A stretch of 64,000 bases of DNA from Paracamarosporium sp. OC-R06-R3 (Eukaryota > Ascomycota > Dothideomycetes > Pleosporales > Didymosphaeriaceae), in NCBI GenBank assembly GCA_019828545.1, contig JACVRA010000086.1:402503-466502 (forward strand), in the 5' to 3' direction. The notes beneath the pieces were generated by a model. It did not search any database. It saw only the letters and a list, made by a program, of their open reading frames with translations, and was not told where the DNA came from. Shown here piece by piece: positions 15,721 to 59,813 of the stretch (the stretch's first letter is position 1; each line of letters starts with the position of its first letter). A program made the translations under genes and the position numbers.

Positions 15721-16326
15721 GCGCCTTGTTGAGGTGGAGCTGTTTCCTTGGGTCGCCGGCGTGGACATGGTCATGGGTTATAGTCAATTTGGCGTGCATC
15801 ATGTCTGGCGAGGACTCTTTTACGGGTTTAAAAAAGATACTCATGCCTTTGCAATGAAAGTATACCATGGGCTCTCGAGGCTCATCGGATGATTCGATGA
15901 TTCTAGTCTGTATGTGATAATGTGAATTGGGGATTTGAGTCGTTCGCAGTGCCAGCCTGTGCAGTTTGTGTTGTCCCCGAATGCAGAAAATGAAAGCAGA
16001 CTGCATAGCAATGTATGCAACGTTGTGATCATAATTCTAGCATGTTCAACAGATTAGTATAATCAGTCCAGAAACCACACCCTATACACTAAATGCCCAT
16101 TCCGATTCCTTTGCAAATATAGTGGCTGCTATGGTTAGGTGACGTGCCGCCACTCGAATTTTTACTGCTGAAAACTTTCCCCACCACTCAACCCCAGCCA
16201 AAGTACTAGCGCCAGTCCGCAATCGGAACTACGACAACTTCACGTCTTCGGCAGCGCCGTGTCAAAACTTAAGTTCCCCGTGTTACGCCAGGAAAACCAA
16301 TATAAAGATCGACAATTACACAACAA
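15721..16326. other. Intergenic between eL18 and ADE2
   Basis: 3' region of eL18 followed by the ADE2 promoter. No gene recognised. Confidence 0.45.
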
Positions 16327-18030
16327 ATGGCTGATTCTAGGAAGGTGGGCGTGCTGGGTGGTGGCCAACTTGGCCGCATGCTCATTGAAGCCGCGAACCG
16401 ACTCAACGTTCAAGTCAATGTCCTCGACGCAGCAGCATCACCAGCGAAACAAATCTCAGCACACGATGGCCATATTGAGGGCTCCTTCAAAGATGCTTCA
16501 GCTGTGAAGAATCTCGCGCAAGCTTGCGATGTCGTCACTGTGGAGATTGAGCACGTGGATACGCACATGCTTGAGGAAGTCGCGGGCGAGGTCGCTGTCG
16601 AGCCTAGTTGGAAGACCTTGAGGACGATCAAGGACAAGTATGCTCAGAAAGAGTATCTGAAACAGCATGGAGTTGATGTAGCGGAGAGTGAAGACCTAGA
16701 AGGCAAGGGTGCGGAGGGGTTGATGGCCGTCGGGGAACGCTTTGGATATCCGTTTATGCTCAAGAGCAAGACAGAAGCTTACGATGGCCGTGGCAATTTT
16801 GTTGTCAAGACCAAGGACGATACAGATGCCGCAATCAAGGCTTTGGGTGACCGGCCGTTGTATGCGGAGCGCTGGGCCGACTTCAAGATGGAGCTTGCGG
16901 TCATGGTAGTCAAGACCAAGGACGGTGTTCTCACATTTCCTACCGTCGAGACAGTGCACGAGGATTCAATCTGCAAGCTCACCTACGCACCACCAAGGAA
17001 CGTCTCTAGGGCAACTACAGAGAGGGCACAACAGCTGGCGAAGAAGGCTATCGGCGCCTTCGAAGGAAAGGGTGTCTTTGGCGTGGAGATGTTCCTGCTC
17101 AAGGACGACACACTGCTCATTAATGAGATCGCGCCTCGACCGCACAACTCAGGTCATTACACCATCGAAGCATGCCCTCTATCACAATACGATGCCCATC
17201 TTCGTGCTATCCTCGATATCCCTATCCCACCATCAGCACTCCGTCTACGCGAGCCCGCAATCATGCTCAACATCCTCGGCGGCAAGAACCCGGACTCACA
17301 CATCCAGGTCGCACACAAGGCTTACGAATCGCCCAATGCATCCATCCATCTATACGGAAAGGGAGATGCCCGACCCGGTCGCAAGATGGGCCACATCACG
17401 GTCACAGCGCCCACCCTCTCTGAAGCCGAGAAAGAAATCGAACCCCTCATCGACTTCGTGGACGACCAGAAGGGCAAACCTCTCGGTCCTCGCACTGCCC
17501 AGACAGACGAGCCCCTCGTCGCCGTCATCATGGGTTCCGACTCCGATCTCCCCGTCCTAAAAGCCGGTCTCCAGATCCTAGAGAAGCTCCAAATTCCCTT
17601 CACAACGCGCATCACGTCCGCGCACCGCACGCCCGACTGGCTCCGCGAATTCTCAAAGTCCGCTGCTGACACGAGTCTCCGCGTCATCATCGGTGCTGCG
17701 GGTGGAGCCGCGCATCTGCCTGGTATGTGTGCGTCTTGGACCACGCTGCCTGTGATCGGGTTGCCCGTTAAGGCGACGCATATGGATGGGTGGGACAGCT
17801 TGGTGAGCATGACACAGATGCCGCGCGGTGAGCCCGTCGCTACTGTTGGCATCAACAATTCAACAAATGCGGCGTTGCTAGCGGTGCGGATCCTTGGTGC
17901 AACGGATCTGGCTGTTCGAGAGCGATTGCGCGTATGGATGGAGGGTAACGAGAAGGAGGTGTTGAGGAAGGATCAGGAACTGCTTGAGAAGGGGTTCGAG
18001 AGTTATCTGAAGGGTATGGGGAAGTGGTAA
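16327..18030 (+). CDS. ADE2: Phosphoribosylaminoimidazole carboxylase (PurK-PurE fusion)
   Basis: Intronless frame of 567 aa. Residues 1-390 are the PurK-like ATP-grasp half: VGVLGGGQLGRMLIEA at the start, then EIAPRPHNSGHYTIEAC. Residues about 400-567 are the PurE half: VIMGSDSDLPVLKAG, ITSAHRTPDWL and IGAAGGAAHLPGM. The fused enzyme carboxylates aminoimidazole ribotide in de novo purine synthesis; loss in fungi gives red, adenine-requiring cells. Start and length agree with fungal Ade2 (about 570 aa). Confidence 0.97.
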   Translation: MADSRKVGVLGGGQLGRMLIEAANRLNVQVNVLDAAASPAKQISAHDGHIEGSFKDASAVKNLAQACDVVTVEIEHVDTHMLEEVAGEVAVEPSWKTLRTIKDKYAQKEYLKQHGVDVAESEDLEGKGAEGLMAVGERFGYPFMLKSKTEAYDGRGNFVVKTKDDTDAAIKALGDRPLYAERWADFKMELAVMVVKTKDGVLTFPTVETVHEDSICKLTYAPPRNVSRATTERAQQLAKKAIGAFEGKGVFGVEMFLLKDDTLLINEIAPRPHNSGHYTIEACPLSQYDAHLRAILDIPIPPSALRLREPAIMLNILGGKNPDSHIQVAHKAYESPNASIHLYGKGDARPGRKMGHITVTAPTLSEAEKEIEPLIDFVDDQKGKPLGPRTAQTDEPLVAVIMGSDSDLPVLKAGLQILEKLQIPFTTRITSAHRTPDWLREFSKSAADTSLRVIIGAAGGAAHLPGMCASWTTLPVIGLPVKATHMDGWDSLVSMTQMPRGEPVATVGINNSTNAALLAVRILGATDLAVRERLRVWMEGNEKEVLRKDQELLEKGFESYLKGMGKW

Positions 18031-51566: not shown

Positions 51567-51985
51567 AACGGTGTTAAGTAGGTCGAGAGGATTGGTTGGT
51601 TAAGTAATATGAATGCGGCCTCTTCCGTAAGGAAGAGACCTTGAAAAACAGTACGTCTATCGAGGTACACCTGTAACCAGATATAAATCATCTACAACGG
51701 ATGATTATCTTTACATGAAGCTGCTGTGTGGGATGACAAGACACGCTTACTATTCGCATGTCTTACGGCATACCTTCCAACCATACATATAAGGCGCCAA
51801 CATATAAATGCTAGCTTCGTTCCAAAGTCTGTTACTCAACATTCCCCTCACGTCCCATGCATATATAAATATTTGAAGTCTCTACCGTTACTCACAAAAA
51901 TAATCCACATTCTCTGTAGCAACTTTGCTGCTAGCTTCACCTCCCGTCATCGCACAGCTACGTACCTCTCTCATGCATCCGGCCT
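51567..51985. other. 3' region of RQC2 and spacer
   Basis: No gene recognised; the DNA becomes A/T-richer toward the repeat array next to the tRNA gene. Confidence 0.4.
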
Positions 51986-52250
51986 TTCAACCATCACCCT
52001 TAAGAGCAATACAAAAATAAAAAGAGCAAAAAGAATAGTCTACTGAGACAACCCAGGCCAAGAGATCAACACCTGTCTAGCTAGCCTTTTGACCATCACC
52101 CGCAGAGCGATGCAAAGACAAAAGAATCAAAAGAATAGTCCCCTGAGGCAACCCACGCTTCAAAAAGATGGGTTTTCAATTATCACCCGCAGAGTGATGC
52201 AAAGATAGAAAGGACAAAAAGAATAGTGTCTTGAGGCCTCAAAAAGATCG
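51985..52250. repeat. Three degenerate ~90-100-bp tandem repeats beside the tRNA gene
   Basis: Copies start near 51985, 52087 and 52174. Each has TTTYRAYYATCACCC, then GAGYRATRCAAAGA, GAATAGT and CTTGAGG/CTGAGRCAACCCA. The third copy runs into the 3' end of the tRNA gene (AAAAAGATCGACACCTGTGAG). The first copy ends in a similar block (AGAGATCAACACCTGTC at about 52060-52076), so the repeated unit seems to include the tRNA's 3' end and terminator. Confidence 0.65.
52241..52245 (-). terminator. RNA polymerase III terminator (T5)
   Basis: On the minus strand five T residues follow the tRNA 3' end after three bases, the expected place for Pol III termination. Confidence 0.75.
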
Positions 52251-52382
52251 ACACCTGTGAGATTCGAACTCACGCTCCCGAAGGAACGGGCTTAGCAGGC
52301 CCGCGCGTTAACCTGAGAACATTGTTAGTTATAGTAACACAAACTGTTGGATGTGTATTACATACCACTCCGCCAAAGTGCC
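52249..52382 (-). tRNA. tRNA-Ser(GCU) with a 53-nt intron in the D loop
   Basis: Exons 52382-52366 and 52312-52249 splice to 81 nt. The acceptor stem pairs GGCACTT with AGGTGTC (two G-U pairs). D stem is GCG/CGC. The anticodon arm is CGGGC-CTGCTAA-GCCCG with anticodon GCT. A long variable arm follows, and the T arm is GTGAG-TTCGAAT-CTCAC. The long variable arm and discriminator G fit serine. The interruption at 52313-52365 lies between the invariant G18 and G19. It starts GTATGT, has CTAAC with its branch A 12 nt before the end, and ends CAG: all spliceosomal signals. Because it begins with G, box A (TGGCGGAGTGG) reads intact in the DNA; box B is AGTTCGAATCT. No intron exists at 37/38. Within the intron GTAATACACA can pair with TGTGTTAC around one bulged base. 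Confidence 0.88.
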
Positions 52383-52872
52383 AGATGGTTGACTTGTACC
52401 CAACTTTGTAGGTCTTCGATGTACTTGATGGAAAGCTATCCATTTAGACAATATATATATCAATATGCATATGTGCAAAGCGCACAGAGGATACGGTAAA
52501 TCGGCAGCAACGATGAGGTGTAAGTGCGGGGCTGTGTGGATAGAGTGGGGTACAGCGTGGGTCTGGAATGTTGGAGTGGGACTCAGCGGGTGTGCATAGG
52601 TTTAGGCCGTGGATGGGGACTATTGAAAAGGGGAACAGGGGGATAAAGGAGGCGTTGTTCATTGATCCAGTTATGGTGGTTCTCTAGTGTTCGATTGAAC
52701 TGAATCGTGGGTTCCACGCGGCTCTACTCAATAGTACCCCTCGCATATACTTGCAACGGTGGGGTTAATGACTAGCCTGCACCAACGCTCTCAGGATTTG
52801 CACATCATAATTGACAGTTTTCCGTGTGAGGGCTGGGAATCGAAATCGGGGAACGTGATTTCTAGATTATCG
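52383..52872. other. Spacer between tRNA gene and transposon
   Basis: Upstream flank of the tRNA gene and left flank of the transposon. A short minus-strand frame at 52444-52662 has no support. Nothing else recognised. Confidence 0.4.
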
Positions 52873-52874
52873 TA

Positions 52875-52903
52875 ACGTGTCCGGCAAGCGAGCCGCGCAC
52901 CCC
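52875..52903 (+). repeat. Left terminal inverted repeat of the transposon
   Basis: Starts ACGTGTCCGGCAAGCGAGCC, matching the reverse complement of the right end at 54725 except C/T at position 11. Confidence 0.85.
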
Positions 52904-52937
52904 ACCAACTTTTCACGAAACGCACCTTTTTACTACA

Positions 52938-54587
52938 ATGGCTCAACCACCTACTATCCGTTCGCCCTATAAAGAGGCAGATATAATGCTTGCTATCTCT
53001 GCTATTAACCAAAATCAATTTCAAAGCGAAAGGCAGGCTGTACGAACCTATAATAGCCCCCAAACGACTCTACAACGACGACGCGCTGGAATCGCTGCGC
53101 GACGCGATTGCGAGCCTAACTCAAAGAAGCTTACCAAGCTAGAAGAGGAGGTGATTACTAGGCATATACTTGACCTAGATTCGCGAGGGTTTCCGCCTAC
53201 GCTAGGTGCTGTGCGAGATATGGCGGATAAGCTGCTTGCTGAGCGCGGCGCTGGCAAGGTGGGCGAGAAGTGGCCGCGCAACTTTGTCAAGCGAACAGAC
53301 AGCCTTACAACGCGTTTCAATCGGCCGTACGATCGACAGAGAGCCCTATGTGAGGATCCAGAGGCTATCAGGGCTTGGTTCGAGCTTATATCGCGCACGA
53401 AGGCCACCTATGGTATCTGTGATCAGGATACCTATAACTTTGACGAGACTGGCTTTATGATGGGCAAAATATCGGCTCAGCTTGTTGTTACAGGCTCAGA
53501 GAGACGCGGCAAGCCAAAAGCAATACAGCCAGGCAATCGCGAGTGGGTTACAACAATCCAGGCAATCAACGCTGCTGGGTGGGCGATCCCGCCCTTTATC
53601 ATCTTCGCTGGCCAGTATCACCTCTCTGCCTGGTACGAAGACAATAATATACCGCGCGACTGGGCTTTTGCAATAAGCGATAACGGCTGGACGACGAACG
53701 AGCTTGGGGTAGAGTGGCTAAAGCACTTTATTAAGCATACAGCAGAGCGTAGGGTAGGCGCGCGCCAGCTGCTTATACTTGACGGCCATGAGAGCCATAA
53801 CTCGCTCGAATTTCAGCAGCTTTGCAAGGATAACAATATCTATACGCTCTGTATGCCGCCGCATTCGTCGCACCTCCTGCAGCCGCTTGACGTTGGCTGC
53901 TTCTCGCCGTTGAAGCGCGCGTACAGTCGCCAGATTGAGAGCCTGATACGCGACCACATCAACCATATCACGAAGCTAGAGTTCCTACCAGCCTTCTACG
54001 CAGCCTATAATCAGTCAATTACAAAGGAGAATATCTGCGCAAGCTTTCGAGGCGCTGGCCTAGTCCCACACGATCCAGAGGCGGTGATATTAAAGCTTAA
54101 TGTGAAGCTTCGCACGCCAACGCCGCCTGCGCCAGAGGTCACCCTCTGGGAAGCCAAAACACCAAGCAACGCGCGCGAGTTGGAGGCTCAATCAACGTTA
54201 ATTCGCGATAGGGTTCGGAGGCATAAGAGCTCGTCGCCTGCTTCTATTATTGCAGCGATTAACCAGCTTGAAAAAGGCGCTGAGGTGATGCTTTATTCCG
54301 CTGCGTTACTTAAGGGTCGAGTCGCCAGCCTTGAGAAAGCAAATGAGGCCGCCACAATGCGTAGAAGACGTAAAAGGAAGAGGATTCAGCAGCAAGGCAC
54401 CTTAACAAAGGCAGAGGCAGAGGATATTATTGCTCAAAAAGACGTTGAGCAGCAACTAGAGGGGGAAATGCATCAGGGCAAGGCGCGATCAGGTGTGAGT
54501 CGGCAGGCTTCAGCGCGTTGCAGCCGCTGCAGAGAGACTGGCCACAATGCGCGAACATGTAAGAAGGATACTACAGATACTTCTTAA
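52938..54587 (+). CDS. Fot1/pogo DDE transposase
   Basis: 549 aa, uninterrupted. Order of domains: a psq-type helix-turn-helix (residues 10-55), a CENPB-type DNA-binding helix-turn-helix (60-130, with [12 protein letters not shown]), then the DDE superfamily endonuclease. Its acidic residues are in [22 protein letters not shown] and [18 protein letters not shown]. The C-terminus has a basic stretch (RRRRKRKR) and a CCHC zinc knuckle ([14 protein letters not shown]). No stop or frameshift is present, so the enzyme could be active. The ATG lies 63 bp inside the left end, as usual for compact elements. Confidence 0.95.
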
Positions 54588-58460: not shown

Positions 58461-59813
58461 ATGTCAGATTCCGAGACACACGTTCTTTCAGCGGCGGCCC
58501 TTTCGAGCGCGATTCGCGACGTCGTGGTCTCGATACACAAGTTAGGTCGTGATGATGACCTCACCGTCAATCACGTCCGTACCGGAGCCGAGCAGAAGCT
58601 TGGATTGCCTGCTGGCTTCCTCAAGAAGGACGACTGGAAGAATGAGAGCAAGAAATTGATCAAAGAGGCCGTGGTATGTTTGACTGTCGACACCGAAGCA
58701 CAATTGCGCGAGATTAGGGTGCTGTAAACTCTACAAACCCGCAATGTGTTTACCAACTGCTCTCCCAGCGCTGTAAATAGAGAAAACTAATGCGAGCCCC
58801 AGGACCGGTACTGCGCCGACGAAGCTGTGCCTACACCTAGTCCAAAGAAAGTTTCCAAACCGAAACCGAAACCAAAGCCTGAGCCGAAGAAGACCAAGTC
58901 AACGAACAATAGCGCGCCGCGCGGAGCAAAGAGAAAAGCAACTGCGCCTGCAAAAAAGTCGCAGAAGCGAAGGAAAACCGCGTCTTCCGACGAGGAATCG
59001 GACGCTGTGCTCTCAGAATCGCCTGTCGAGGATAACGGAGCGTTCGATGTTGGAAGCAAGCCAGCTAAGCAACCTGCACGTCGGCAGAAGGTGGTGGCAG
59101 AGGATTCAGATGACGAAGACGGCACTGCGCAGGAGGCTCAGGCCGTATCCTCCTTGAAGCATGCTGAAGGTTCGGGAACACCCCCTCCCGCTATCAGAGA
59201 TGGTGATGCGGAGAGCGACCTTTCGAGCGTGATCGATGAGTCTCCGGTTAAGAAACGAAGGCAACGTACCGAGAAGCCCGCAAAGGCAGTCAAGGGCGCA
59301 AAATCAAAACCAAAGGCCACCAAAACTGAAGACAACCCAGACCAAGCAGAAATAAAACGATTGCAAGGTTGGCTTGTGAAGTGTGGCATTCGCAAGGTTT
59401 GGGGAAAGGAGCTCGCGAAATGCGACAGCTCTAAAGAGAAGATCCGGCACCTCAAGGACATGCTGAAAGACGCCGGTATGGATGGCAAATACTCTGTTGA
59501 AAAAGCTGCTAGAATCAAAGAGCAACGGGAGTTTGCAAAAGATCTGGAAGAGATTCAGGCAGGTGCTGCAGCCTGGGGCGAAGTCTCCAATACCGGACGC
59601 CCGCGTCGTGCAGCAGCCCGGTCGGTCCAACCAGTTGTCCTTCCGCAAGACAGTGATGATGAGGATGAGGATGAGAAAGCCCAGAATGCGAAAGATGAAG
59701 GGGCAACTGACGATGAGGATGACGAGGACGATGAAGCTCATAGCGACTCTTCATCCAATGATAGTGAGGGCGGGAAAGACGACGACGACGATGACGATGA
59801 AGATTTGGACTAG
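58461..59813 (+). CDS. HIRIP3-like histone chaperone with DEK-C-like N-terminus
   Basis: Exons 58461-58673 and 58803-59813 give 407 aa. Residues 1-75 form a small helical domain (LSSAIRDVVVSIHKLG, LGLPAGFLKKDDWKNESKKLIKEAV) resembling DEK-C/ubiquitin-interacting helices seen at the start of such proteins. A basic Lys/Pro/Ser region follows. Residues about 245-310 (EIKRLQGWLVKCGIRKVWGKEL, then IRHLKDMLKDAGMDGKYS) match the conserved core of HIRA-interacting protein 3, an H2A-H2B chaperone. The C-terminus is a long Asp/Glu run, typical for histone binding. Nuclear localisation is inferred from the basic stretches. Confidence 0.8.

Follow-up and report, generated by a model that had tools for sequence, protein, structure and literature searches.

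Can a nuclear tRNA gene be interrupted in its D loop by an intron of the mRNA type and still be a working gene, and, if so, which machinery would remove the intron? Introns of tRNA genes and introns of mRNA genes are taught as separate systems served by separate machines. The question is raised here by a tRNA-Ser(GCU) gene in a contig of the fungus Paracamarosporium sp. OC-R06-R3, within a stretch of 64,000 nucleotides that we refer to as the window. Its features are given in Table 1. By tRNA numbering, exon 1 presumably covers tRNA positions 1 to 18 and exon 2 positions 19 to 73, so that we take the intron to lie between G18 and G19. An ADE2-like protein encoded at window 16306-18027 is 94 to 95% identical to proteins of Paraphaeosphaeria sporulosa, Karstenula rhodostoma, and Bimuria novae-zelandiae and 96% identical to an unnamed protein, which places the DNA in Pleosporales, close to Paraphaeosphaeria, and, judging from the lineage of P. 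sporulosa, probably in Didymosphaeriaceae.

Table 1. Features of the interrupted tRNA-Ser(GCU) gene in the window
Feature	Position in window	Strand	Remarks
Interrupted tRNA-Ser(GCU) gene	52249-52382	minus	Joined exons called by ARAGORN; gene with insert aligned by a Ser covariance model
Exon 1, 17 nt	52366-52382	minus	Identical in second copy
Intron, mRNA-type, 53 nt	52313-52365	minus	GTATGT...CTAAC...CAG; diverged homologue in second copy
5' splice site GTATGT	52360-52365	minus	Same in second copy
Branch site CTAAC	52324-52328	minus	Branch A at 52325, 12 nt before intron end
3' splice site CAG	52313-52315	minus	Same in second copy
Exon 2, 64 nt	52249-52312	minus	100% identical in second copy
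Box A TGGCGGAGTGG	52365-52375	minus	Final G is the intron's first base
Anticodon GCT	52294-52296	minus	ARAGORN on joined exons
Box B GTTCGAATC	52261-52269	minus	95 nt beyond box A
T5 run, likely Pol III terminator	52241-52245	minus	3 nt past gene end

An earlier note on this DNA had claimed a serine cloverleaf of 81 nt that forms only without the segment 52313-52365, and the claim holds to the exact coordinates: ARAGORN calls the joined exons as tRNA-Ser(gct), and the gene folds only after removal of that segment. The joined sequence has the cloverleaf, GCU anticodon, long variable arm, and G73 of a functional tRNA-Ser(GCU). It aligns without gaps to the uninterrupted tRNA-Ser(AGA) and tRNA-Ser(TGA) of the same genome, and across these three tRNAs standard pairs occupy all 72 cells of the 24-pair cloverleaf, with two-sided changes at 10 of the 24 pairs. 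Neither the 72 cells nor the 10 two-sided pairs were matched by any of 500 shuffles (the number of pair types was matched by 6), and D-stem pair 12-23, which is one of these ten, can form only by joining bases from the two sides of the removed segment. Three identical tRNA-Ser(AGA) genes share the D arm GGCGGAGTGGTTA but have no insert, which makes the insertion point evident. A serine covariance model (R1) aligns the window gene over positions 1 to 81 of 81 with the insert left in place (87.2 bits) and aligns a second interrupted gene, described below, also with its insert, although this match is partly by construction because the joined sequence is among those from which R1 was built.

Such genes are easily missed, and standard scans did not call this one. 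General tRNA scans of the whole window called nothing; with its intron options on, ARAGORN called no tRNA in the unspliced window copy and only a tRNA-Pro(cgg) in the unspliced second copy; and neither GCU copy was among the 62 matches of a tRNA family search of the genome that scored 63 of 1,284 candidates. The 28 matches on contigs C26 and C300, which are taken to be mitochondrial from the clustering of their tRNA matches, were set aside. We surveyed 35 loci, comprising 33 of the remaining 34 matches (C333:16621 was left out), a gene on C47, and a place on C272, and ARAGORN called 34 tRNA genes among them (none at C272). Anticodon-region introns of 6 to 33 nt were present in 23 of these 34 genes, and a D-loop insert was called by ARAGORN in none of the 34; doubtful calls on intron-bearing genes (two SeC, one Tyr(ata), and an Asn with an odd anticodon position) were left uncorrected. 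These anticodon-loop introns, together with two loci in the genome that encode a tRNA endonuclease domain, suggest that the genome has the usual system for tRNA splicing. The tRNA-Ser(GCU) gene does not use the usual tRNA-intron site, its anticodon loop (CTGCTAA) being uninterrupted, as the earlier note had said of position 37/38. Among the other serine genes, a second and quite different tRNA-Ser(TGA) (L052, G000:C47:123550-123900) has a 15-nt anticodon-loop intron, and the tRNA-Ser(TGA) at L061 is intronless.

The arrangement of the gene appears compatible with transcription by Pol III. The intron provides the last G of TGGCGGAGTGG, which we take to be box A by the box consensus, and this promoter element thus stays unbroken; GTTCGAATC is presumably box B on the same grounds. 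Boxes A and B and a T-run terminator (within the common sequence TCTTTTT) are present, by sequence, in both copies of the gene. The distance between the boxes is long with the intron and shortens to 42 nt once the exons are joined. No run of more than three T's occurs inside the gene in either copy, so that no early termination by Pol III would be expected from the intron. In base composition, both tRNA introns are AT-rich, with a G+C content of 32% (window 52313-52365) and 29% (L002), compared with about 50% in the surrounding 2 kb.

The insert carries the signals of a U2-type spliceosomal intron, all of them where the earlier note had placed them, and they recur in the second copy. Both introns have GT...AG ends with an extended 5' splice site (GTATGT...CAG), and the branch site lies at a usual distance from the intron end, as ACTAAC at 12 nt in the window copy and as ACTAAT at 10 nt in the second copy, where CTAAT replaces CTAAC. 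The chance of finding GTATGT, a CTAAC near the end, and CAG in a segment with fixed ends is about 5e-8, as estimated from base composition for one segment, and the signals recur in a diverged second copy. The pattern GGTATGT...CTRA...AGGTTNANNC has two matches in the genome, both of them the tRNA-Ser(GCU) genes, compared with one in a backward control. Because GGT stands at both joints, four junction registers (-1 to +2) would give the same mature tRNA, and the GTATGT...CAG ends correspond to one of the four. A conserved pairing of the 5' splice-site region with the intron was noticed by eye in folds but dropped as a candidate, because shuffled sequences did as well in 430 of 500 and in 64 of 500 cases.

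Neighboring protein genes had been said to use the same signals, and six Pfam-backed introns of the window, from a set picked by motif, agree with this. A scan of the window with a loose motif (GTANGT...CTRAY...YAG, 45 to 75 nt, with a branch distance limit of 5 to 20 nt) gave 15 matches, including the tRNA intron, compared with 6 in a reversed control, and a strict motif (GTATGT...CTAAY...CAG) gave 4 compared with 2, so that the motif by itself has only moderate specificity. Branch-site distances of the window intron candidates ranged from 8 to 20 nt. Thirteen of the 14 other loose-motif matches were joined (42603 was left out), and seven of these were scanned against Pfam, with a match across the joint in six (Adaptin_N, Clat_adaptor_s, VID27_N, Amino_oxidase, Tyrosinase_C, and Tyrosinase) and none for the joined candidate 62865. 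Five of the six Pfam-backed introns start with GTATGT and all six carry RCTRAC. The same motifs and length range had served to choose the set, which makes the comparison partly circular; it establishes that such signals occur in real introns and not how frequently they occur.

Another candidate for removing the insert is the tRNA-splicing machinery itself, with cutting by the Sen endonuclease and joining by tRNA ligase, as for introns in the D arm of nuclear tRNAs of red algae and of nucleomorph tRNAs. The two endonuclease-domain loci and the 23 surveyed genes with anticodon-loop introns are in keeping with such a route, and the available text of a review describes introns in the D arm of eukaryotic tRNAs for which the endonuclease is held responsible (PMC4090602). 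The insert is not at the canonical Sen-type position 37/38, however, and the bulge-helix-bulge (BHB) structure, taken strictly as 3-nt bulges around a 4-bp helix, was tried in four registers and both orientations for each copy and reached at most three of four central pairs. The best case is register +2, in which the mature tRNA is unchanged and three of the four central pairs form in both copies, but a full central helix forms in no register, orientation, or copy, and this weakens the endonuclease alternative. Moreover, the intron positions that are conserved are the spliceosomal ones. We therefore regard endonuclease cleavage as improbable.

The second gene copy lies at C333:12027-12159 and is the only other match to the whole gene in the assembly searched (G000, 43.1 Mb, 337 contigs); this DNA search, matching only the two gene copies, likewise gave no origin of the intron elsewhere in the genome. 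The exons of the two copies are identical at 81 of 81 bases. The introns, in contrast, have diverged, the second being 52 nt long and showing 38 matches, 13 mismatches, and 3 gaps relative to the window intron (51 aligned positions). The difference between exon and intron change is unlikely to be due to chance (Fisher P = 1.5e-6), and at the whole-intron rate the chance of zero change in 81 exon bases would be 4e-11. Within the intron, the second copy retains GTATGT, ACTAAY, and TCAG while the rest diverges, with 17 of 18 signal positions (GTATGTA, AACTAAY, and TCAG) kept compared with 21 of 33 other positions (P = 0.02, from two sequences). Gene conversion would need to skip an internal intron to produce this contrast, and selection on the exons may thus be the simpler reading.

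The flanks of the two copies are unrelated. When 9.9 kb around the second copy was compared with the whole window, similarity in the flanks extended no more than 8 nt beyond the gene, as far as the T run, and the one other match at E < 1 was 53 nt long and far from the tRNA gene (window 59760-59812). Directly 3' of the window gene, 51982-52258 is a degenerate tandem repeat with a unit of about 100 nt and 71 to 73% identity between stretches; Tandem Repeats Finder did not report it, and one unit appears by eye to include a relic of the 3' end of the tRNA. An open reading frame on the plus strand (52866-54587), some 480 bp away from the tRNA gene, encodes DDE_1 and HTH_Tnp_Tc5 domains and is probably a pogo/Tc5-like transposase.

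If the interrupted genes were silent, another tRNA-Ser(GCU) gene would have to do their work. AGC and AGT make up 43 of the 192 serine codons in four large open reading frames, which is normal use, and tRNA-Ser(GCU) should therefore be indispensable. By the decoding rules, AGY codons are not known to be read by any other tRNA, so that there must be a working GCU gene, either one of those found here or one absent from the assembly. With the joined 81 nt as query, no uninterrupted tRNA-Ser(GCU) was found in the assembly; the seven matches were the two GCU genes in two pieces each and the three tRNA-Ser(AGA) genes (83%). The 3' exon matched only two places in the genome at E values up to 10. As a positive control, a tRNA-Ser(AGA) query recovered its three identical copies and tRNA-Ser(TGA) at 90%. 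A loose pattern for divergent GCU genes was uninformative, with at least 156 matches compared with 181 in a backward control, and a tighter pattern gave four, namely, the two genes and two sites without a tRNA, compared with one in the control. Scanned by pattern, viral contigs yielded one match and prokaryote contigs three, and these were taken as chance because none had tRNA flanks by eye.

These results bear on whether the locus is a pseudogene, with an insert that always stays in place and with AGY codons decoded by a tRNA that is missing from the assembly. An assembly of 337 contigs may indeed lack a tRNA gene, and the distance of 95 nt between boxes A and B is long. Against this, the copies show 0 changes in 81 exon bases compared with 13 in 51 aligned intron positions, the T run is kept in both, and neither the 3'-exon search nor the joined-sequence search revealed an intact gene. 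The earlier note had named intact GCU genes elsewhere and a decaying locus as the marks of a pseudogene; what was found instead, a second interrupted copy with identical exons and none intact, favors function, and we consider a pseudogene or silent locus decidedly unlikely. It is barely credible that the likeness to an mRNA intron arose by chance and that the insert is simply tolerated in the D loop of a functional tRNA. The serine covariance model does align both genes without removal of the insert, but this tRNA was among the sequences from which the model was built. Against such a reading, signals with so low a chance per segment are kept in both copies, and in the tertiary structure G18 and G19 would be held apart by 53 nt in the D loop.

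Overall, we consider it highly probable that this is a working nuclear tRNA-Ser(GCU) gene and that the intron in its D loop is truly spliceosomal, of the U2 type. This suggests that production of an essential tRNA may require the machinery that splices mRNA. Pol III would make a precursor from boxes A and B and stop at the T run. The spliceosome would then recognize GTATGT, the branch site ACTAAC, and CAG, remove 52 to 53 nt as a lariat, and join G18 to G19, after which the tRNA would be completed in the usual way. The proposed spliceosomal step draws on sequence anatomy and on conservation between two copies in one genome. The intron was presumably gained once, before the gene duplication, and may have originated by reverse splicing; since that gain, the tRNA would have been dependent on splicing.

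It is likely that this represents the first nuclear tRNA with spliceosome-dependent maturation, in which all AGC and AGU codons would be read by way of mRNA-type splicing of a Pol III transcript and decoding would be coupled to splicing capacity. Because the arrangement survived a gene duplication followed by marked intron divergence, the state would be old and may be common to a clade of Pleosporales. If this is true, an essential tRNA that is the only one of its kind would carry an mRNA-type intron and show that the spliceosome can serve tRNA genes. The locus would then allow splicing in the absence of Pol II to be tested in nature, and related genomes could be used to date the gain of a spliceosomal intron by a structured RNA.

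Canonical tRNA introns at 37/38 likewise interrupt nuclear tRNA genes, but they differ from this one in position, length, and signals. In the available text of a 2014 review of tRNA introns (PMC4090602), D- and T-arm insertions in eukaryotes are mostly supposed to be pseudogenes, with nucleomorphs and Cyanidioschyzon as exceptions, and the string "spliceosom" is absent from that text. It is also absent from the available text of the tRNAscan-SE 2.0 paper (PMC8450103), in which a search for noncanonical introns is described for archaea, and a 2026 review, as far as its available text goes, has tRNA splicing carried out by protein enzymes and not by the spliceosome (PMC13149111). Among the papers listed in searches of open-license literature other than bioRxiv, considered mostly by title and the start of the abstract, none described a nuclear tRNA gene that contains a spliceosomal intron. 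The introns of Cyanidioschyzon and nucleomorph tRNAs resemble the present one in being eukaryotic and outside 37/38, the D arm included, but the available portions of the sources (PMC4090602 and PMC3978253) ascribe them to the tRNA endonuclease and describe BHB motifs as important in Cyanidioschyzon. The tRNA-Ser(GCU) intron, unlike these, has spliceosomal signals and no full BHB.

Introns in U6 genes are known from Rhodosporidium. In the present genome, a U6 intron as a parallel case was absent from the one complete U6 copy found (L087, G000:C53:500300-500700) among the 47 of 2,435 candidates that were scored. A further locus (L088, G000:C302:51700-52300) has two inverted U6 copies that match the C53 U6 only from base 38 and base 8, with a B-box-like sequence, noted by eye, between them. 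The nearest precedents for the tRNA-Ser(GCU) intron, as far as the available parts of the sources show, are the mRNA-type introns in the U6 snRNA genes of Schizosaccharomyces pombe (Tani and Ohshima 1989, 1991, in PMC10484740) and in the nuclear rDNA of lichen fungi, where spliceosomal introns include a tested one of 57 bp (PMC8527467); an mRNA intron is also cited for deuteromycete 18S rDNA (PMC11782384, available text). Compared with S. pombe, the host here is a tRNA and not the catalytic RNA of the spliceosome, and the complete U6 copy of this genome is intronless. The lichen introns, as described in the portion of the source available, share with this one the setting of a short mRNA-type intron in a fungal structural RNA that is not made by Pol II, with the difference that the host there is a Pol I rRNA and here is a tRNA.
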